Part shown: in pieces, positions 4,242-64,000 of the stretch
Layout: each line of letters opens with the position of its first letter
Numbering within the stretch: the stretch's first letter is position 1
Origin: a bacterium ADurb.Bin236
GTDB taxonomy: Bacteria > UBP15 > UBA6099
NCBI GenBank assembly: GCA_002069885.1
Contig: MWCD01000010.1
Span: forward strand, 1-64,000
Direction of reading: 5' to 3'
Length of the DNA: 64,000 nucleotides
Translations under genes and position numbers: made by a program
The notes under the pieces: generated by a model
Told to the model about the DNA's origin: nothing
What the model saw: only the letters and a program-made list of their open reading frames with translations
Databases searched by the model: none

Positions 4242-4807
4242 ATTTTCGGTCCGGCCTTGTCTATGATTTTTCTAACTTCTTTATGCCCTTTCACTTTGGG
4301 CGAATACTTAATCTTCATTTTTTTCATCATTTCCTTGCCGATTTCCATGTCGTCCATGAAAGACTTCGTCCTGAGCTTATAATGGCCGAACAGCATCGGC
4401 TCGTTCATCCTGCCGCGCGCTCTCACAATGCCCATAAAAATGTCGTGGAACCGCTTGGTGTTAGGTTCCGGGCACTCGATCCCGCGCTCGACCGCCATCT
4501 CTTTCAGGATATCCATTACGCCCGCGACGTCTATCTCCATAGGGCAACGCGTCGTGCATGTGACGCACGAAGAGCACATCCAGATGGTTCTGCTCTTCAG
4601 AACCTCGTCTTCCATGCCGAGCGCGCACATGCGGATTATCTGCGTCGGGTTGTAATCCATTGCGAATTCCACCGGACAACCCACGCCGCATCGCATGCAT
4701 TGAATGCAACGCGAAAGATTCTTCGCGCCGCGCGCTTTTAATACATTTGCGAAATTGGGATTAATGTTGAAATTTACAAGACCTACGCTTGCAGCAGCGT
4801 CGCTGAT
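4238..4807 (-). CDS. hdrC: HdrC-like heterodisulfide reductase subunit C (iron-sulfur); start codon uncertain
   Basis: The protein carries two 4Fe-4S motifs (CIQCMRCGVGCP, and CSSCVTCTTRCP about 35 residues on), followed by an alpha-helical domain typical of HdrC, which links HdrA to HdrB. The first ATG of the frame (4696) lies inside the first cluster motif, after two of its four cysteines, so the real protein must begin upstream. Family-like sequence (NFNINPNFANVLKARGAKN) continues in frame before it. Between the in-frame TGA at 4811-4813 and the clusters there is no ATG, GTG or TTG. The coordinates assume an ATC start at 4807, which has GGGGG (4816-4820) 8 nt upstream; this is a guess. A 5' lesion or sequencing error is the alternative. 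The stop overlaps the hdrB start. Confidence 0.8.
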   Translation of the reverse strand: MSDAAASVGLVNFNINPNFANVLKARGAKNLSRCIQCMRCGVGCPVEFAMDYNPTQIIRMCALGMEDEVLKSRTIWMCSSCVTCTTRCPMEIDVAGVMDILKEMAVERGIECPEPNTKRFHDIFMGIVRARGRMNEPMLFGHYKLRTKSFMDDMEIGKEMMKKMKIKYSPKVKGHKEVRKIIDKAGPKI

Positions 4808-4819
4808 AGGTCATTCCCC

Positions 4820-5246
4820 CTATCTATAATTAAAGTAGCGTTTCTCTCACCGTTGCCGCGCGCGACCGCCGCCCGCCGGAGCATTTGCATGGGATTCGGT
4901 TGGTCTGCGGACTTTCAAACAGCCTGCCGTAAATCCTCGAGCTGCCGGTTTTTGTGTGTCTATATTATTCAGACTTCGGCCACAGCCGCGCGTCGTTTCC
5001 TTCGCGCGACCGTTGATATTATATGTTCAGCGTCTTCACCAGTCAACGATTGAAAAATGATTTTTGCATGATTCTCTGCGATGAGAAAGCCGCTCCTGCA
5101 TTCGCTTTTTTGTTTGCCGCAATACGGATTGTTCTCTCCTGATTCCGCTGCGCGCGCCGAGAAACGACGCCGGTCATTATTTGTTCTAAGTTGAATTCGG
5201 CGGCGCATTTGGTATATCATTAAGCAAAACGCGGATGGAAAACGCC
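4820..5246. other. Intergenic region between the divergent hdr operon and the small membrane-protein gene
   Basis: About 430 nt without a gene I can support. It must hold the promoters of the minus-strand hdr operon and of the plus-strand 5247 gene, but I see no convincing -35/-10 pair for either. A TATAAT at 4825-4830 faces the plus strand without a good -35. An 83-codon minus frame at 4969-5220 lacks a ribosome-binding site and has coding-unlike composition, so I do not call it. Confidence 0.5.
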
Positions 5247-5453
5247 ATGTCTGAAGATAAAGAAGAAATAAAAATCAGGAAAGTGTGCGGGCAATGCGGG
5301 CTTGTTCATGAAACAGCGGCGGAACCCGGCGAAGCCGGAGCGGACGACTGGAAGATGATAGCGCTTTCCATCGTCGGCATAGGGCTGATAGCCCTGATAT
5401 GGGTGTGGGTTTTCCGCTGGGGCGTGCCGCTTGTCAAAAGCGTGAGCGGCTGA
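5247..5453 (+). CDS. Small membrane protein with an N-terminal CxxC motif
   Basis: A 68-residue protein with an acidic/basic N-terminus, a single CGQC motif near residue 14 that could be half of a zinc ribbon, and one clear transmembrane helix (about residues 36-58, IALSIVGIGLIALIWVWVF), ending in a short polar tail. The ATG at 5247 is preferred over the in-frame ATG at 5235 because GGATGGA lies 7 nt before it. It sits 39 nt upstream of hspR on the same strand and is probably co-transcribed with it. I do not recognise the family. The single CxxC could bind metal as a dimer or act as a thiol sensor, but that is speculation. Confidence 0.65.
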   Translation: MSEDKEEIKIRKVCGQCGLVHETAAEPGEAGADDWKMIALSIVGIGLIALIWVWVFRWGVPLVKSVSG

Positions 5454-5492
5454 CCGCTCCCGCCGCTTTTCCAATCCATCAGGAATGAGTCT

Positions 5493-5798
5493 ATGAGCTT
5501 CCACGGTTACGATGAGCCTGTGTATATAATTTCCGTCGCGGCGGAACTGCTGGGCGTGCATCCGCAGACTCTCCGAATGTACGAACGGGAACAACTCGTG
5601 GTCCCCCGCCGAACCGACACCCAGAACCGGATGTACTCAATGCGCGACCTCGACGACGTCCGGGAAATCAGGAAATTGACCCGCGAGGAAGGCGTCAACC
5701 TCGCCGGCGTCCGCATCATCCTCCGGATGAGAAGGCAGATGGAGGAGCTTAACAGGAAAGTTTACGAACTTGGAACACCTGAGAAGGTTGACGGATGA
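5493..5798 (+). CDS. hspR: HspR, MerR-family heat-shock repressor
   Basis: A 101-residue MerR-type regulator. Its N-terminal winged helix-turn-helix reads PVYIISVAAELLGVHPQTLR, followed by YEREQLVVPRRT, the HspR signature, and EEGVNLAGVRIIL in the dimerisation part. Known HspR proteins repress dnaK/clpB operons by binding HAIR inverted repeats, with DnaK as co-repressor. AGGA lies 8 nt before the ATG. No dnaK, grpE, dnaJ or clpB gene is in the window, so this is an orphan copy as far as can be seen. Its stop codon overlaps the start of the next gene (ATGA), and a small CxxC membrane protein precedes it. I found no HAIR-like repeat nearby. Confidence 0.92.
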   Translation: MSFHGYDEPVYIISVAAELLGVHPQTLRMYEREQLVVPRRTDTQNRMYSMRDLDDVREIRKLTREEGVNLAGVRIILRMRRQMEELNRKVYELGTPEKVDG

Positions 5799-6634
5799 AC
5801 GCGTTGAAGGTTTTCGTTTCAGCGCTGGCGATAGCCTCCGCAGTATGCGTCAGAGCCGCGGCATGGACTGACGCGGTTCATGAAAATGCCGCGCTCTCCG
5901 CCTCGGCTCACTTCCCTACTCCACTCCGTAACATTGTTAAATCCAACCAGAAAGCTTACCTCGAAGGCGTAAAGAACAGCCCAGAACTCTACGACGAGCT
6001 AGTCAGGCAAAAAGAAGGGTTTTCCACCGAGCTACTCAGATTCAGAGGAATGGAAAGATTCATATATCACATAAAAAGAATGCAACGACTGATAGACGCT
6101 AAAGCCGAAGGCCCGGTTCAGGCGGCGGAACTGGGCGCGCTCTCTCGCGTGGCTCTAGACATGCTCGAACCGGCGCCTCCTTCCTCAAGTTTCCGCCCTC
6201 TCGAAATCGCCGGACATAGAATGTTTTTTCATTCCGATTTCGAGCAGACGGCGAAAAAATTCGATTTTCTTTTTGACGGCTCTGCGGTCATTAAAGACAT
6301 ACCGGCGAGGGTGGACGCCGATATGGATTTCGCAAACGAAAAAGGCTCCATCATCTACGAAGCGTACCGGCGCGGGGCCTCTTTCAAAACAGTTGACTCC
6401 GAAACTCAGGCCGCGCTCAACCGCGCGCTCAACCTGCTGACGGACGTTGTTTACACTCTGCACCAGACAAGAGGGGAACTGCACAAGAACCCGTACAGCC
6501 CGGAAAATTTTCTCAGACTGGAAAGATTTAAAAAACAAAGTAAAATCAAAGGCGGCGAGATCGAGGGGCCGAAGGGACCGTCCGCCCCGGACTCGCCGAA
6601 TAAACCGGATGTTCAGAAACCCGATCAGGATTAA
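5795..6634 (+). CDS. Secreted protein, possibly a degenerate zinc phospholipase C / P1-nuclease fold
   Basis: A 279-residue protein with a signal peptide (residues 1-22, cleavage likely after AAA), so the mature chain would begin with Trp. In zinc-dependent phospholipase C and S1/P1 nucleases the mature N-terminal Trp is a zinc ligand. Further echoes of that fold are AELGALSRVALDMLEPA, where the family has a helix with H-x3-D-x4-H, then HSDFEQTAK, where the family has HxxYE, and a final alanine-rich helix ending DVVYTLHQ. Several metal ligands would be replaced (the first helix His is Arg, the last one missing). So this is at best a degenerate member. The C-terminus is Lys/Pro/Asp-rich and disordered. 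The gene is translationally coupled to hspR. The family assignment is weak; the secreted location is fairly sure. Confidence 0.8.
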   Translation: MNALKVFVSALAIASAVCVRAAAWTDAVHENAALSASAHFPTPLRNIVKSNQKAYLEGVKNSPELYDELVRQKEGFSTELLRFRGMERFIYHIKRMQRLIDAKAEGPVQAAELGALSRVALDMLEPAPPSSSFRPLEIAGHRMFFHSDFEQTAKKFDFLFDGSAVIKDIPARVDADMDFANEKGSIIYEAYRRGASFKTVDSETQAALNRALNLLTDVVYTLHQTRGELHKNPYSPENFLRLERFKKQSKIKGGEIEGPKGPSAPDSPNKPDVQKPDQD

Positions 6635-42615: not shown

Positions 42616-44643
42616 ATGAACAGTCCAAAAGTAATAAAGCTGATACGGAAGAGAGACGGAAGGCTGCAGGAATTCAACGTCGCTCGAATAGTGGAGGCGG
42701 CGAGGAAAGCTCTGCACGCGTCCGGAGAGAAACAGGACCGCAACACGGCGGATGAGATCGGGCAGAAAGTGATGTCCCTGATCGAGTTGGTTTATTACAA
42801 GCGAGACAGAGTTCCGTCCGTCGAGGAAGTGCAGGATCTGGTGGAAAACGCGTTGATGGACGCGCACAAGCCCGCGGCGGCCAAAGCGTTCATCCTCTAC
42901 CGAGAGCAACGCGCCCAGATCCGTCAGGCTCGCTCTCTGCTCGAGGACGCTGTCCGGCTGGTCGACTCGTACGTCGACCGCGAAGACTGGCGCATAAATG
43001 AAAATTCCAACATGGATTATTCCCTACAGGGGCTGAACAACTACATCTCTTCCTCCGTGATATCGAGATACTGGTTGACAAAGATTTACAGCCCTGCGAT
43101 AGGCGAAGCGCACAACACGGGGCGGCTTCATCTTCACGACCTCGGTCTGCTGAGCGTTTACTGTTGCGGATGGGACTTGCAACAACTCTTGGAGAAGGGG
43201 TTTCAGGGGGCGTTCGGCAAAATCGCAAGCTCTCCGCCGAAGCATTTCCGAAGCGCGCTCGGCCAGATTGTGAACTTTTTCTACACCATGCAGGGCGAGT
43301 CTGCCGGAGCGCAGGCTTTCTCCAGTTTTGACACTCTTCTTGCTCCTTTCATCCGCTACGACGGCCTTTCTTATGAGGATGTCAAACAGGCGATGCAGGG
43401 GTTCGTGTTCAATCTGAACATCCCGACGAGGGTCGGTTTTCAAACTCCTTTCACAAACCTGACGATGGACTTGCAGCCCTCTTCGGTGTACGCCAACGAG
43501 CCGGTGATAGTGGGCGGCAAACGCCTGAAAGAAACATACGGCGAATTCCAGCATGAGATGAACATGATAAACCGCGCGTTCGCCGAGATTATGATGCAGG
43601 GCGACGCGTCAGGCCGTATTTTCACCTTCCCGATTCCGACGTACAACCTGACGAGGGATTTCGACTGGGACAACCCGAAGCTGCTCCCGCTGTGGCGGAT
43701 GACGGCGAAGTTCGGAATACCCTACTTCGCAAACTTTATCAACAGCGATATGAGTCCTGACGACGTCCGCAGCATGTGTTGCCGGCTAAAGCTGGACAAG
43801 AGGGAATTGATGAAGCGCGGCGGCGGGCTTTTCGGAGCGAACCCGCAGACCGGCAGCATCGGCGTTGTCACGCTCAACATGCCGCGAATCGGATACACCG
43901 CCACAGACGACGTTAATTTCTTTGAGCAAGTCGATGAACTGATGGATCTGGCCCGCGAGAGCCTCGACACCAAGCGCAAGGTGCTCGAGCATTTCACAGA
44001 CCAGACGCTTTATCCTTACTCGAAGTTCTATCTTGCCAACGTGAAGAGCGTCAGAGGCGCGTACTGGGCGAACCACTTTTCAACCATTGGCCTAATCGGC
44101 ATGCACGAATGCTGCCTGAACTATCTCGGCAAGGGAATAGACACCCCTGAAGGCCGCGAGTTCGCACTCAGAGTTCTCGACCACATGCGCGACCGCGTTA
44201 AAGACTATCAGTTGAACAGCAAAGAGGAAGTCAGTTACAACCTCGAAGCCACTCCCGGCGAAGGCACATCGTACAGGCTCGCCCGGCTCGACAGGAAGAG
44301 CTTCCCGAAAATCATAGCATCAGGCAAGGAGCAGCCTTTCTACACCAACTCCTCACAGCTTCCGGTGGACGCCACGAACGACATCTTCGCCGCGCTCACC
44401 CATCAGGACGAGCTTCAGGCGAAGTACACCGGCGGGACCGTCCTGCACGGTTTCATCGGCGAAAGCATCGAGGATCCGGTGGTGTGCAAGAAGCTGGTGC
44501 GAAAGATTGCTGAGAACTTCAGACTGCCATATTTTTCAATTTCGCCGACATTCACCATCTGTCCGAAACACGGATATATATCCGGGGCGCATCATACGTG
44601 CCCCTATGACGATGACGAGGAGGAGACGGCGGCAAACGCCTGA
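42616..44643 (+). CDS. nrdD: NrdD, class III ribonucleoside-triphosphate reductase, catalytic part lacking the glycyl-radical tail
   Basis: A 675-residue protein. An N-terminal ATP-cone (IRKRDGRLQEFNVARIVEAA, about residues 8-95) is followed by the ten-stranded NrdD barrel: FNLNIPTRVGFQTPFTNL near 275, the MCCRLKLDKREL segment near 386, and LFGANPQTGSIGVVTLNMPR near 408. Near the end it has CPKHGYISGAHHTCPY, the first part of the zinc knuckle. Family members then continue with the second CxxC half and the RVxGY glycyl-radical motif. Here the chain instead runs into an acidic tail (DDDEEETAANA) and stops with TGA at 44641. The missing part is encoded by the next ORF, in the same frame. The start at 42616 has GGAG 8 nt upstream. 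The enzyme makes dNTPs anaerobically. Confidence 0.95.
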   Translation: MNSPKVIKLIRKRDGRLQEFNVARIVEAARKALHASGEKQDRNTADEIGQKVMSLIELVYYKRDRVPSVEEVQDLVENALMDAHKPAAAKAFILYREQRAQIRQARSLLEDAVRLVDSYVDREDWRINENSNMDYSLQGLNNYISSSVISRYWLTKIYSPAIGEAHNTGRLHLHDLGLLSVYCCGWDLQQLLEKGFQGAFGKIASSPPKHFRSALGQIVNFFYTMQGESAGAQAFSSFDTLLAPFIRYDGLSYEDVKQAMQGFVFNLNIPTRVGFQTPFTNLTMDLQPSSVYANEPVIVGGKRLKETYGEFQHEMNMINRAFAEIMMQGDASGRIFTFPIPTYNLTRDFDWDNPKLLPLWRMTAKFGIPYFANFINSDMSPDDVRSMCCRLKLDKRELMKRGGGLFGANPQTGSIGVVTLNMPRIGYTATDDVNFFEQVDELMDLARESLDTKRKVLEHFTDQTLYPYSKFYLANVKSVRGAYWANHFSTIGLIGMHECCLNYLGKGIDTPEGREFALRVLDHMRDRVKDYQLNSKEEVSYNLEATPGEGTSYRLARLDRKSFPKIIASGKEQPFYTNSSQLPVDATNDIFAALTHQDELQAKYTGGTVLHGFIGESIEDPVVCKKLVRKIAENFRLPYFSISPTFTICPKHGYISGAHHTCPYDDDEEETAANA

Positions 44644-44721
44644 ACTCCGTCGATTAGTTCCGGCGAGAAGCGCCGCAACGCGGCGAACGCCCGCCGAAAT
44701 CTATGAAAGGAATCTAAAAAA

Positions 44722-44931
44722 ATGGCATCATGCAAAGAACAAACTGAAGTTTACGCCCGGGTTGTCGGATATTTTCGCCCGGTGAAACACTGGAACGTCG
44801 GAAAGCGAGAGGAGTTCAACAACCGAGTCGTGTATGAAACGGCTTCGTTCGACTCCGAGATAACTCGCTCAGCGGCGGTGGAAAATGAATTCGTTGCCGA
44901 TAAAATGGTTTCAGGGAACTTCGCTAATTGA
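44722..44931 (+). CDS. Stand-alone glycyl-radical domain of the split NrdD
   Basis: A 69-residue ORF that continues the NrdD alignment exactly where the larger protein breaks off. After MAS comes the Cys that would complete the zinc knuckle, then TEVYARVVGYFRPV, with the glycyl-radical Gly in RVVGY, and HWNVGKREEFNNR, the conserved NrdD C-terminus. A tail of about 28 residues follows that normal NrdD proteins lack. AAAGGA lies about 10 nt before the ATG, so it looks independently translated. It is in frame with nrdD, 123 nt separating the CPY of one from the CKE of the other, with TGA codons at 44641 and 44704. The radical subunit would have to assemble with the 675-residue part. It overlaps nrdG by 47 nt. 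Confidence 0.85.
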   Translation: MASCKEQTEVYARVVGYFRPVKHWNVGKREEFNNRVVYETASFDSEITRSAAVENEFVADKMVSGNFAN

Positions 44932-45673
44932 CTATCCCGGACGCGTCGCGTCCATAGTCTTCGTCGGCGGATGCAACTTCAGATGCAGATTTTGTTACAA
45001 CAGGGATCTGATATCAGCCGACACCGTCCCTGACGTCGACGCCGAAGAGATTCTCCGTGAGCTTAAACACAGGCGCGGGTTCATCGACGGCGTGGTGATT
45101 ACGGGCGGCGAGCCGACTCTCAACCACGGGATAATCGATTTCCTTTGCGCGGTAAAGCGCATCGGCATAGATGTCAAAATCGACACCAACGGCAGCAACC
45201 CTGAAACGCTGGAATGGATTATCGAGGAGCGGCTGGCCGAATATGTAGCGATGGACTATAAGGCCCCGCTCAGAAAACTCGACTCCGTAATTGGCGCAAA
45301 GGGCATGGCTGAACGCGTTCATGCTTCCGCCATGCTGCTGATTCACCGGGCAACCTGCCGCTATGAGTTCCGAACCACCGTGCATCCTTCTCTACACGAT
45401 CCTTTTGACATCGATGAGATGGCTGAAGAGATTCACGGAGCGGCGGCATACCACCTCCAGCAGTTCCATCCGGTGGATTCTCTCGACTCGTCTCTGCTCA
45501 GCGTTCCTGCGTACGGCCCTGATTTTTTCAGAGCCGTCTCCCACAGAATTTCCGATAGATTCCCCGTATTCTCCATCCGCAATCTTCCCGACTTTCAGAT
45601 GAATGAAGCGCCCGCATCCGACACCGAGACAGAATTAGCCCCAAAGTTTATTAACCACAGCGCAGACCGATAA
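44885..45673 (+). CDS. nrdG: NrdG-type radical-SAM activase of anaerobic ribonucleotide reductase
   Basis: A 262-residue radical-SAM protein. The cluster motif CNFRCRFCYN lies at about residues 31-40, the SAM-binding GGEP in VVITGGEPTLNH near 72, and KIDTNGSNPETL near 99. It begins SLIDYPGRVASIVF, as in the NrdG proteins of anaerobes that are longer than the E. coli form. It abstracts hydrogen to install the glycyl radical in NrdD. The ATG at 44885 follows GGTGG closely and lies inside the end of the glycyl-radical ORF (different frame), implying translational coupling of the three nrd genes. Confidence 0.92.
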   Translation: MNSLPIKWFQGTSLIDYPGRVASIVFVGGCNFRCRFCYNRDLISADTVPDVDAEEILRELKHRRGFIDGVVITGGEPTLNHGIIDFLCAVKRIGIDVKIDTNGSNPETLEWIIEERLAEYVAMDYKAPLRKLDSVIGAKGMAERVHASAMLLIHRATCRYEFRTTVHPSLHDPFDIDEMAEEIHGAAAYHLQQFHPVDSLDSSLLSVPAYGPDFFRAVSHRISDRFPVFSIRNLPDFQMNEAPASDTETELAPKFINHSADR

Positions 45674-45813: not shown

Positions 45814-47433
45814 TCAATGGCACTGAGCGCAATAGTCTTTCTTGTGGCAGAGCATGCAGAGCGCGTTTTTAGCTTTGGCCGCCGGACCGTGCGACGACAT
45901 GAAGTCTTCATTGTGGTCGGCGGGTTTAATATCTGAATGGCAATTCTCGCAGTCGGCTGTCTTGTGGCAGACGGCGCAGCGTTTGAACTGCTTGTTGGCG
46001 AGATCGCCGTGGTTGGAAGCGATATCGTCGGCGTGCGGGTACGCTCCGCCGCCGTGGCAGGTGTCGCAGTAAGACTTCGCGTGGCAGCCTACGCATCTGG
46101 CTTTGTTAGCGCGCGCTTCCGGGCCGTGCTTCATTTTGAAGTTAGCCTTCTTGTGGTCGGCAGGTTTGGATTTCTTGTGGCAGTCGTCGCAGAACTTCTG
46201 GTCGTGACAGAACGAACATTGGGTGGACTTCTCGGCGGCTTCCTTGCCGTGCGTTTTCAGATAGTCCTTCGGATGCGGGATAAGCGAATGGCACGCCTTG
46301 CACTTCTTTCCTTCGATATTGTGACAGGCGTTGCAAAATTCCACATTGCCGGCTGCGTCCGCTTTATGGTTTTTGACATAGCCTTTTGCGGAGTGAGAAG
46401 CGGGCGGATTCTTTGCGTGGCATTTATCGCAGAAGTCGCTTTTGTGGCACTTGGTGCACTCGGAGGGATTCTTTCGAAGAATCGGGCCGTGATTCTTCAG
46501 CACTTCCTCGGGGTGAGGCAGCGCGTATCCGTGGCAACTCTGGCAGAGGGGAGAAAACTTCATGTTGCCGTGGCAGGCGATACATGACGCCTCTTCTTTT
46601 TTCGCCTGTTTTGTGTGGTTCGTTCTCCAGTCCGCTCTATCATGATATTTAAATTTCTTGGAATCTCTGACGTGGCATTTCTGGCAGAATTCGGTGGCGT
46701 GGCAGTTGCCGCAGGACTCCTTGAGGGCTTTCGACTTGTCTTTTGAAAGCCTCTGGATCGAAGTCTGATGGCTGACTCCCCACGTGCTGTCGTGGTATCT
46801 GTATATTTTTTTCTGGTGGCAGGTTATGCAGAAGCTGTGCGTGTGGCAGTCGCGGCATTTCTGATTCTCTTTTTTTGCGACCATCGGGTGGGTGTAGCTC
46901 CAGCCCTTGGCATGGTCGTCAACCATCGTCTTGTGGCACTCGCCGTTATTGCAGTAATCCACGGTGTGGCAAGCCGCGCAAGACGCGTTTGTGCGCTGTC
47001 CGGGCTTGTCAACGTTGAAGAATTTGCCGTGCTCGTCCCATTTATTTGTGTTTTTGTCATGCGCCCATTTAGCCTGATGGCATTCGTTGCAGGAATCGTA
47101 ATGGTCGTGGCATGCCAGACAGCTTTTCGGGTCGGCCTTGTATTCGTTGATGTGGCGCGCCACCATTCCGGGCTTATGCGGCGCGGCGGAAACGTGACAC
47201 GCGTAACAATATCTGCTCTCGCAGTTTTCGGGGTCGATCGTTTCAAGTCCCTCGACATGGGAATCTATCCATTCCTGCGTAAAATGCGCGCCTATGTGCG
47301 GCGTCGGAACCTCGCAGGCTTCGGGGTCCGCTTTCGGTTTCTGCTTGCAGCCGGTTCCCGCGAAAACTACCAGCGCCGCAAGCGCGCATACCGCCAGTTC
47401 TTTCATTCTCATAGGTTTTCGCATATCTCTCAT
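45814..47433 (-). CDS. Large exported multiheme c-type cytochrome (22 CxxCH motifs plus one CX4CH)
   Basis: A 539-residue protein with an N-terminal signal sequence that ends at a lipobox-like FAGTGC, so it may be an outer- or inner-membrane lipoprotein facing the periplasm. I count 22 canonical CxxCH haem sites from CYACH near residue 75 to CAQCH, which is the very C-terminus. There is one further CNNGECH (CX4CH) after the fourth. Most sites come in close pairs separated by His-rich spacers with HG or DH repeats, a regular architecture of about 35-45 residues per pair. Such proteins move electrons across the periplasm or to extracellular acceptors. It lies downstream of rnfB in the same orientation, with an RseC-like gene between on the other strand. 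Confidence 0.95.
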   Translation of the reverse strand: MRDMRKPMRMKELAVCALAALVVFAGTGCKQKPKADPEACEVPTPHIGAHFTQEWIDSHVEGLETIDPENCESRYCYACHVSAAPHKPGMVARHINEYKADPKSCLACHDHYDSCNECHQAKWAHDKNTNKWDEHGKFFNVDKPGQRTNASCAACHTVDYCNNGECHKTMVDDHAKGWSYTHPMVAKKENQKCRDCHTHSFCITCHQKKIYRYHDSTWGVSHQTSIQRLSKDKSKALKESCGNCHATEFCQKCHVRDSKKFKYHDRADWRTNHTKQAKKEEASCIACHGNMKFSPLCQSCHGYALPHPEEVLKNHGPILRKNPSECTKCHKSDFCDKCHAKNPPASHSAKGYVKNHKADAAGNVEFCNACHNIEGKKCKACHSLIPHPKDYLKTHGKEAAEKSTQCSFCHDQKFCDDCHKKSKPADHKKANFKMKHGPEARANKARCVGCHAKSYCDTCHGGGAYPHADDIASNHGDLANKQFKRCAVCHKTADCENCHSDIKPADHNEDFMSSHGPAAKAKNALCMLCHKKDYCAQCH

Positions 47434-61858: not shown

Positions 61859-64000
61859 TCACGAATGTTCCGAGCGCGAGATAATCTCATTCTGAATCTC
61901 TCGTCCAAGCTCGGTGAAATAAGCGCTGTATCCGCCGACTTTCACAATGATGTCCCTGTGCGCGCCGGGATTTTTCTGAGCGCAGCGGAGCATCTCGGCG
62001 GAGGCTACGGTGGGTTGAAGCTGCTCTCCTCCGAGCCTGAAATATGTCTTTATGAGGGAAATCCATTTGTCCCGCGTCTCGTCCGAACCGCCTATGGCCG
62101 AAGGATGAAGTCTTATGTTTGCCGCGCATCCGAGGACTTCCGTGAAATCGATGGCGGCGATGGATTTCAGGACTCCAGTCGGGCCGTTCTTCTCCACATT
62201 GTACGGATTGCAACTCGCGGCGAAAGGCATCCCGGCGCGGCGTCCGTCCGGCGTGGCAAGCGACATCCTGCCGTCTATCGTGTGCGCCGTCATGCTATTA
62301 ATGAAAGGAGCAAGGAAACCGCCCTTGTATGTTTTGTGTTTTTTCAGTTCCCGGAATATATGGTTTGTCACGCTCCGGGCAATGTCGTCCGACTCCGGGT
62401 TTCCGTTACCCCATTTGCCGGGAAGCGACAAAACAGCCGTCCTCACGCGCCGATGCCCTTTGAAGTTGTCGTCCATCGCCCTAATCAGGCGCGCAAGAGA
62501 AAAAAGCCCGCGCTCGAACACAAGCTTCTTGATGGTGAAAAGAGAATCTGTTACATTCGCGACGCTGCTCATGAGCAGAACGCCCTCGACGCCTCCGTCC
62601 GCTCCGCCTTCCGTCATGTCTTTCATCGAGTCGAGAGTTTCTTTCAGGAAAAGCGAGATGTTGGGAGCGGGCAGGATTCGGGCATAAACGGCGTCTCGGG
62701 CGCGGGCGGCGGCGGCGATCTTGGCGATTTCGTTGTCGAGTTGAGCGAAAAAAGCGCCGAGCAACTGTTCAAATGATTTGAACGAGTCCGGCGCGCCCGT
62801 CCGCAATCCCGCGCCTTTGACAATTCCCGCGGCAGTCTTCGTGTCGCCATTGCGCAACGCCATGTCGAGCGCGCGGCACAACAGTATCGACGAGAAGCCC
62901 TCCCCTCCCGTCCTGCCAGCGACCGCCATGTCAACGCACCCGGTTATCGCGTAGTCGTTCGCGTCCTCCTCGGAAAACCCGCTCTTTACCATTGCCGCGA
63001 AGCAGATCTCGTCGTTCATCATCGACACGCTGGAAACGCATCTTGAATGAATCTTCGCCGTTTCTCGGCAGAGTTTTTCAGGAGACCGGGGGTGAAGTCT
63101 GACCACGAAGTTGAGAGAGGCCTTCGAGCGCTCGGCGGCTTCCAGCATTATGTACGTAAGCTCGTTCGTCGCGTCTTCTCCGCTTCTCGTCAGGCCGCCG
63201 AGAGTCACCGGCTCAGAGCCTTCGTATCTTTGAGTGAACTCCGCCGTCAGGCTGGAACCCGGCCGCATGTTGTGGCTCATCACTTTCAGGAAAAGCTCTT
63301 CAAGAATCTCTCGCGCCTCATCGCCGCTTATCTCGCCCCGCTCAATGTCTCTTCTGAAATAGGGCAGAAAAATCTGGTCCAGACGCCCCGGCGCGTGAAC
63401 GTTGAACGGCATGGCAAGGTCGGAAATGTTCTTCAGAGTCCAGAACGACTGAACCACCTGCCTGAACGAACGAGCGGGATGAAGCGGCGCAACCCTGCAG
63501 TCGGCTAGCGATTGCGAGAGAAAAGCGCGCCCCCGCTCGTCTCCTGCCTTGCCAGCCCGGTTCAGCGCCGCTTCTACGGCGGCGGAAAGCCTTTCTGCGA
63601 ACGCCACCGCCCCGTCTAGCGCGGTCTTTGCAGTTCTAAGAAAATCCGCCTCGTTCGCCGGACCGTTTGCCGCGCGGCGCATTCTGTCTTTGACGTCCTC
63701 CCGCATGGCCAGCAGCCCGCGCGACATCGCCGTCTCATAATCGAGAACGAGATGCCCCTGCCATGTCCCGATCGCGGCGGCGGGCGAGATTATCGTGACT
63801 TCCCGCGCGGTGGCCGGCAAAGCATCGATGAACTCCGAAAAACTATCCGGACATAGACGCAGCGCGGCCACATCCCGCCTTACTATGTCGGCGGCGGTTT
63901 TACCGCGCCAGTAAGGAAGTATGTCTTCCAGCAATTCTCTTCTGTCTGCGCTTCGTATCCTGTACGGGTTTACCCTGCGTTTGTCTATCGTGGCGCTCCC
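61859..64000 (-). CDS. Glycyl-radical enzyme of the dehydratase/lyase type (partial, N-terminus off the right edge)
   Basis: The frame is open to the last base, so the start is outside the window; 713 codons are visible and about 80-100 N-terminal residues are missing. After RVNPYRIRSADRRELLEDIL come the family segments LGGLTRSGEDATNELTY, the thiyl-radical Cys in DYAITGCVDMAVAG, and PFINSMTAHTIDGR with the usual active-site loop. The C-terminal glycyl-radical motif is IVKVGGYSAYFTELG. Choline-TMA-lyase, glycerol/diol dehydratase and 4-hydroxyphenylacetate decarboxylase relatives have Glu two residues after the Cys (GCVE); here it is Asp (GCVD). The substrate is therefore unknown. The dedicated activase follows 13 nt downstream. 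There are no microcompartment genes in view. Confidence 0.93.
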   Translation of the reverse strand, partial: GSATIDKRRVNPYRIRSADRRELLEDILPYWRGKTAADIVRRDVAALRLCPDSFSEFIDALPATAREVTIISPAAAIGTWQGHLVLDYETAMSRGLLAMREDVKDRMRRAANGPANEADFLRTAKTALDGAVAFAERLSAAVEAALNRAGKAGDERGRAFLSQSLADCRVAPLHPARSFRQVVQSFWTLKNISDLAMPFNVHAPGRLDQIFLPYFRRDIERGEISGDEAREILEELFLKVMSHNMRPGSSLTAEFTQRYEGSEPVTLGGLTRSGEDATNELTYIMLEAAERSKASLNFVVRLHPRSPEKLCRETAKIHSRCVSSVSMMNDEICFAAMVKSGFSEEDANDYAITGCVDMAVAGRTGGEGFSSILLCRALDMALRNGDTKTAAGIVKGAGLRTGAPDSFKSFEQLLGAFFAQLDNEIAKIAAAARARDAVYARILPAPNISLFLKETLDSMKDMTEGGADGGVEGVLLMSSVANVTDSLFTIKKLVFERGLFSLARLIRAMDDNFKGHRRVRTAVLSLPGKWGNGNPESDDIARSVTNHIFRELKKHKTYKGGFLAPFINSMTAHTIDGRMSLATPDGRRAGMPFAASCNPYNVEKNGPTGVLKSIAAIDFTEVLGCAANIRLHPSAIGGSDETRDKWISLIKTYFRLGGEQLQPTVASAEMLRCAQKNPGAHRDIIVKVGGYSAYFTELGREIQNEIISRSEHS

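Follow-up and report, generated by a model that had tools for sequence, protein, structure and literature searches.

The class III ribonucleotide reductase of the bacterium ADurb.Bin236 (GTDB lineage Bacteria; UBP15; UBA6099) is very probably bipartite, with a separate, exchangeable radical subunit of 69 residues that completes the zinc site of the catalytic protein NrdD. Direct support is provided by the conservation of two genes under purifying selection, by the recurrent splitting of nrdD in other lineages, by the complementary distribution of zinc ligands over both proteins and by mobile copies of the small gene that lack a NrdD partner. The locus is located on the plus strand of contig MWCD01000010.1, within a 64,000-nucleotide stretch of DNA (the window).

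The nrdD gene (42616-44643) encodes a 675-aa protein of the PRK08270 type (NF006126, 1014 bits), which contains an ATP cone, a ten-stranded barrel and a finger loop, as well as candidate zinc ligands one to three (PF03477, PF13597). The finger-loop MCCR (43774-43785; M387, C388, C389, R390) is invariant in alignment A2, and a cysteine motif MCCR or MGCR has been described for the finger loop of NrdD (PMC9669993). The first part of the zinc knuckle (44560-44601) consists of C649 (44560-44562), H652 (44569-44571) and C662 (44599-44601), which are likewise invariant in A2, while the fourth ligand is absent from NrdD. After the CPY motif, the protein sequence continues with an acidic tail, DDDEEETAANA (44608-44640), and terminates with ...FTICPKHGYISGAHHTCPYDDDEEETAANA at the stop codon of the 675-aa chain. 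The RVxGY glycyl-radical motif, missing from this chain, is found on a separate 69-aa ORF (44722-44931), which carries RVVGY plus the NrdD C-terminus; the radical Gly16 (44767-44769) is part of EVYARVVGYFRPV and is preceded by the candidate fourth zinc cysteine (44731-44733). PF13597 matches NrdD over positions 1-526 of 562 (E 7e-177), lacking the C-terminal end of the family, and the small ORF over positions 526-562 (E 1e-9), i.e., exactly over the missing end; this confirms the claim of the earlier note that NrdD stops inside its zinc knuckle and that the rest resides on the small ORF. The latter overlaps by 47 nt with the start of nrdG2 (44885-45673), encoding a radical-SAM activase (TIGR02495, NrdG2, 191.9 bits versus a cut-off of 131). 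A large ORF with multiple CxxCH motifs (45814-47433, minus strand), resembling a multihaem cytochrome, adjoins the nrd operon.

In the fused class III enzymes, such as those of Thermotoga maritima, Prevotella copri, Streptococcus thermophilus and phage T4, both the zinc site and the radical glycine are located on the catalytic chain (PMC11226230, PMC9669993). The window locus shares with them the barrel, the ATP cone (present in most), the finger loop, the order of zinc knuckle and RVxGY domain, and NrdG, but its chain is broken inside the zinc site and completed by a separate 69-aa protein. The four candidate ligands are thus distributed over two chains, with C649, H652 and C662 on NrdD and the fourth on the small ORF.

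The two pieces are separated by a 78-nt intergenic gap (44644-44721), in which an RBS-like AAAGGAA (44706-44712) is located 9 nt upstream of the ATG of the small ORF. No terminator was called between the two genes in this gap. A candidate regulatory hairpin in the gap was rejected, as its z-score is only about -1.4 to -1.9 and the structure is lost in one of the same-genus relatives (L033). The distance from the end of CPY (44607) to the cysteine at 44731 is exactly 123 nt, in frame, and the only in-frame stops are two TGA codons at 44641 and 44704 (U676 and U697 of a read-through chain); the spacing, the two stops and the separate AAAGGA and ATG are all present in the window sequence as previously noted. 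This shared frame would be compatible with one continuous NrdD, made either by reading the TGA codons as tryptophan or selenocysteine or by bypassing the gap; the small ORF would then simply represent the 3' end of the gene. However, two same-genus assemblies (L032 and L033) show the same split, and the gap of L032 contains a 1-nt indel that shifts the small ORF into another frame while both ORFs stay intact. In L033 the small ORF is in frame with nrdD, but the gap sequence has diverged; in both relatives the RBS-like motif and the ATG are kept. Elsewhere, frames vary freely and other genes intervene. The frame change in L032, with both ORFs intact and under selection, refutes readthrough as a conserved mechanism and makes it a most improbable explanation for the window itself, where the common frame is accidental. 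The related proposal of the earlier note, an in-frame insertion tolerated by readthrough or bypass, fails on the same frame change and on the genes that separate the two pieces in other loci (thyX or a restriction-modification pair).

The selection on both ORFs is apparent from pairwise comparisons of the window with L032 and L033, which for NrdD yield a dN of 0.003, a dS of 0.17-0.25 and a dN/dS of about 0.013-0.015; for the small ORF, dN is 0-0.012, dS 0.12-0.17 and their ratio about 0-0.07. Purifying selection, the preserved RBS and the frame change in L032 indicate that both ORFs are selected as separate genes. The window and its close relatives are metagenome assemblies, and the genome also encodes a class II reductase that could serve as a backup, such that NrdD need not be essential in this bacterium. 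Both observations would suit a decaying locus or an assembly artefact with the small ORF as a remnant, yet independent assemblies (L032, L033 and G001-G003) agree on the split, both ORFs are under purifying selection, and the same arrangement is found on complete plasmids of cultured bacteria, which leaves decay or artefact scarcely credible. Two findings that could have spoken for it were looked for on the suggestion of the earlier note: a relative with a continuous frame, whereas all same-genus relatives are split, and a second full-length nrdD elsewhere in the genome, which contains no other copy. The window nrdD is the sole one, and neither a second NrdD nor any other NrdD-type radical domain was found in the genome, which is 92.6% complete.

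The cultured bacteria with split loci on plasmids include Cupriavidus necator H16, C. metallidurans, Paracoccus denitrificans, Bradyrhizobium, Shinella, Cereibacter and Sulfuricystis. On plasmid pHG1 of C. necator H16 (L303, 771-3144), NrdD is a 676-aa protein of 76.2 kDa without the radical motif; its residue Gly650 belongs to the zinc knuckle (CPTHG650Y), and the glycine of RVMGY is found on a separate 66-aa ORF. Gly650 of this protein was reportedly proposed as the radical site by Siedow et al. 1999; if so, the assignment was misplaced. In C. necator H16, nrdDG is described, in a second-hand account, as essential for complete anaerobic denitrification (PMC2864759), and the gene numbering given there for C. 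metallidurans skips one gene between NrdD (Rmet_5137) and NrdG (Rmet_5139).

A search of related genomes for a tail-less NrdD next to an ORF of roughly 70 residues, as proposed in the earlier note, found this arrangement repeatedly. Relatives within the same family and order are split, as are Elusimicrobia (208-237 nt from the NrdD stop to the radical motif, in all frames) and a contig labelled Aenigmatarchaeota, among others, while Smithella, other Syntrophales and Dehalococcoidia among the genomes examined contain fused NrdD. When 386 genomes were screened with a profile of the radical domain, 91 strong places were detected in 87 genomes; the domain is a stand-alone ORF in 41 of these 87 (26 families) and part of a fused chain in 46 (33 families). 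In the phylum of genome G340, all 19 genomes with a match to the domain contain stand-alone ORFs only. Most split loci show the order nrdD, small ORF, nrdG, but thyX is located between nrdD and the radical ORF in L162 and L184. In another locus (L180, genome G150), this position is occupied by the gene of a DNA methyltransferase, next to a likely restriction gene. Trees of the NrdD core (58 rows, C-terminal part excluded) require at least 13 changes between the split and the fused state with FastTree and at least 12 with IQ-TREE, of which 8 or 7, respectively, are forced by well supported branches, and a single clade of all split rows is rejected (p-AU 9e-49). The break always occurs within the same short stretch of NrdD. 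Its retention at low dN/dS in two same-genus assemblies, together with its recurrence in many phyla, places the split far beyond chance.

Some radical domains are linked to redox modules. The stand-alone subunit is fused to a thioredoxin-like domain in L168 (genome G128; Pfam) and to a glutaredoxin-like, thioredoxin-like domain in L175 (genome G308; judged by eye), and L190 and L191 encode apparently full chains of NrdD, radical domain and redoxin.

The distribution of candidate zinc ligands, whose roles are deduced from the alignment, links the two proteins. In fused relatives, the fourth zinc cysteine is located five residues before the E of E-V-Y, and the cysteine of the small window ORF aligns with this invariant residue (C706, alignment A2). 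Among 58 split loci, 36 contain the fourth cysteine on NrdD (CPxC) and none of these 36 has a cysteine at position -5 of the subunit; this count includes four loci (L179, L181, L183 and L184) in which the subunit was not returned by the motif search and was scored from the sequences. In 13 loci, the window included, the fourth cysteine is absent from NrdD and present at -5 of the subunit. The remaining 9 contain neither cysteine, and all 9 have a histidine on NrdD in CPY(P/E)H(T/S). The cysteine at -5 is therefore found in 13/22 pairs without a fourth NrdD cysteine versus 0/36 with one (Fisher p 1.6e-7, a value that ignores kinship). Each pair in the 58 loci thus carries exactly one candidate fourth ligand, at one of three mutually exclusive locations. 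Several of the CPxC types combine a helix-like tail on NrdD with a helix-like start of the subunit, and judging from their sequences these two elements may pair. Conservation, recurrence and this ligand rule strongly support the two-subunit NrdD with a shared zinc site that the earlier note had considered.

A more serious alternative, though still an unlikely one, is that a once-mobile intron or intein left a neutral split, whose products assemble by chance affinity without any functional advantage. Introns and inteins favour reductase genes (PMC3653736), and a homing-endonuclease insert is indeed present in the stand-alone gene of L184. In this locus (minus strand, reverse complement 4767-5800; order nrdD, thyX, radical ORF), 870 nt containing a LAGLIDADG ORF (PF14528) interrupt the radical ORF directly after the codon of the radical glycine, and the joined flanks read RVVGYLRPVSQWN. 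The ends of the insert (U before it and G at its end) look like those of a group I intron, and an Rfam search of the insert produced no match at E <= 0.01. Split nrdA and nrdD genes are also described for the phages Aeh1, phiAS4 and 949, where some of the fragmented genes still encode working enzymes (PMC3653736). These phage splits are either sporadic or associated with introns, inteins or homing endonucleases, whereas the split of the window type is recurrent, affects one place and lacks such remnants. The 78-nt window gap contains its own RBS, offers no room for an ORF and shows no trace of an endonuclease or intein; furthermore, the same stretch is broken in several independent origins, accompanied by matching zinc ligands or paired helix-like tails. 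Mobile insertion may thus explain the start of some splits, but not their persistence.

The bipartite reductase is compatible with a structural model, obtained with AlphaFold2 for the read-through window chain as a single chain from a 39-row alignment that included fused homologues (mean pLDDT 78, pTM 0.78). The radical domain (703-742) is modelled confidently (about 79-85), while the linker (669-703), which includes residues of the acidic NrdD tail, stays under 50 and appears disordered. The model superimposes on the solved structures 4u3e (Z 33.5, rmsd 2.9, 539 aligned residues) and 8p2s (Z 33.5, rmsd 2.9, 559 aligned residues), and both alignments run through residues 741-743. As a single read-through chain was built with fused homologues, a correct placement of the domain is expected almost by construction, and because of these homologues in the alignment the model demonstrates compatibility rather than proof of assembly.

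Based on these data, we infer that the two proteins assemble physically, that NrdG activates the small one and that it can be replaced after damage. The nrdD product would constitute the catalytic core, supplying Cys-His-Cys as the first three zinc ligands. The small protein would dock in the barrel mouth, at the place of the normal C-terminal domain of NrdD, where its cysteine would complete the zinc site and Gly16 would be set beside the finger-loop cysteines. NrdG2, encoded by the overlapping ORF, would generate the radical on the small protein, from which it would be passed to the finger-loop cysteine. Because the radical subunit is separate, cleavage by oxygen would not oblige the cell to make the 76-kDa core anew: a fresh subunit could take the place of the damaged one, and it might even be supplied in trans by phages or plasmids.

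A comparable division of labour is known for GrcA/YfiD, a small stand-alone glycyl-radical protein that is activated, docks on a large catalytic chain and rescues damaged pyruvate formate-lyase (PMC12338860); for the window protein, such a part is proposed by analogy. GrcA is of the pyruvate formate-lyase (PFL) type (PF01228) and serves as a backup for an enzyme already equipped with a radical domain, whereas the window protein is of the NrdD type (end of PF13597) and provides the sole radical domain for its core. PF01228 does not match the 69-aa ORF, for which PF13597 is the only hit; in this genome, PF01228 matches are confined to the long frames (815-995 aa) of six PFL-type glycyl-radical enzymes. 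One of these six is also encoded in the window (match at 61913-62221, minus strand; open frame of 870 aa). The precedent of GrcA and the presence of NrdD-type domains without NrdD on phage contigs could be taken to mean that the small protein functions in repair only, as a cofactor, and that the 675-aa NrdD normally uses another radical source. This is very unlikely, as the window NrdD itself lacks a radical glycine, a second NrdD is absent, three candidate zinc ligands await a fourth, and a dedicated subunit is a simpler solution than an unknown radical source. Another two-chain reductase is NrdJa/NrdJb of Pseudomonas aeruginosa, whose second chain bears a zinc-containing C-terminal part (PMC9669993), but this enzyme belongs to class II, is B12-dependent, lacks a glycyl radical and is split elsewhere.

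Stand-alone radical domains are also found apart from any NrdD. Among the best 80 IMG/VR loci, the domain forms a short ORF in 65, with neither nrdD nor nrdG at a distance of up to 5 kb, and is part of a fused chain in 15; 50 of the NrdD-less records, searched over their whole length (8.6-100 kb, possibly fragments), encode only the last part of PF13597 and no NrdD core. The cysteine at -5 is present in 50 of 56 distinct phage radical ORFs. About 20 distinct phage radical ORFs (e.g., L204, L207, L208, L209 and L218) contain RVCGY or RVCGF, with a cysteine right before the radical glycine, where the cellular proteins have valine or methionine. One phage-like contig (L223) encodes a serine recombinase and a reverse transcriptase (PF00078) in addition to a stand-alone radical ORF. 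Named phage genomes in INPHARED yielded three matches only, at least two of which are fused NrdD, and the phage evidence therefore rests on IMG/VR contigs and prophage regions. In cellular genomes, extra copies belong to a Mu-like prophage in L173 (with Mu transposase, GemA and Mu F), adjoin a GemA-like gene in L154 and similarly in L150, and accompany thyX in L299. A further copy, in L171, shares its plasmid-like contig with genes for a ParA-like protein and a replication initiator. Allochromatium vinosum carries a radical ORF (L304, 2989-3198) on pALVIN01, a complete 102-kb plasmid without NrdD. The second, NrdD-distant copy is of the same type as the chromosomal subunit in four of five comparable genomes, namely G023, G041 (which has two such copies), G340 and G439; in G469 the types differ. 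Replacement of the subunit after oxygen damage fits the many NrdD-less domains in phage contigs and plasmids. Whether the stand-alone domain acts as an exchangeable mobile subunit, by which phages and plasmids supply or renew the radical of the host enzyme, usually with a matching type, is an evenly balanced question.

The pieces of this system are already visible in databases. Short proteins named nrdD by NCBI (WP_160786477.1, WP_011154154.1) represent the same kind of ORF, with 57-66 aa between the large gene and nrdG, but these names are automatic labels only. The arrangement itself appears to be undescribed: neither NCBIfam nor PHROGs yielded a model dedicated to the small protein, and a description of a separate NrdD radical subunit was not found in the open-licence PMC literature, although subscription papers may contain one. 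If about half of the sampled genomes with this type of NrdD are split, "NrdD" purified from these organisms would show no activity, and a search for its radical glycine would have to extend to an ORF that annotations may miss; the incomplete gene tables of Cereibacter, for example, list no small radical ORF. The separate subunit would also assign a concrete function to very small phage genes of a kind left mostly unnamed in PHROGs, and it offers a simple test of glycyl-radical enzyme repair by subunit swap, which has so far been demonstrated for GrcA and pyruvate formate-lyase.
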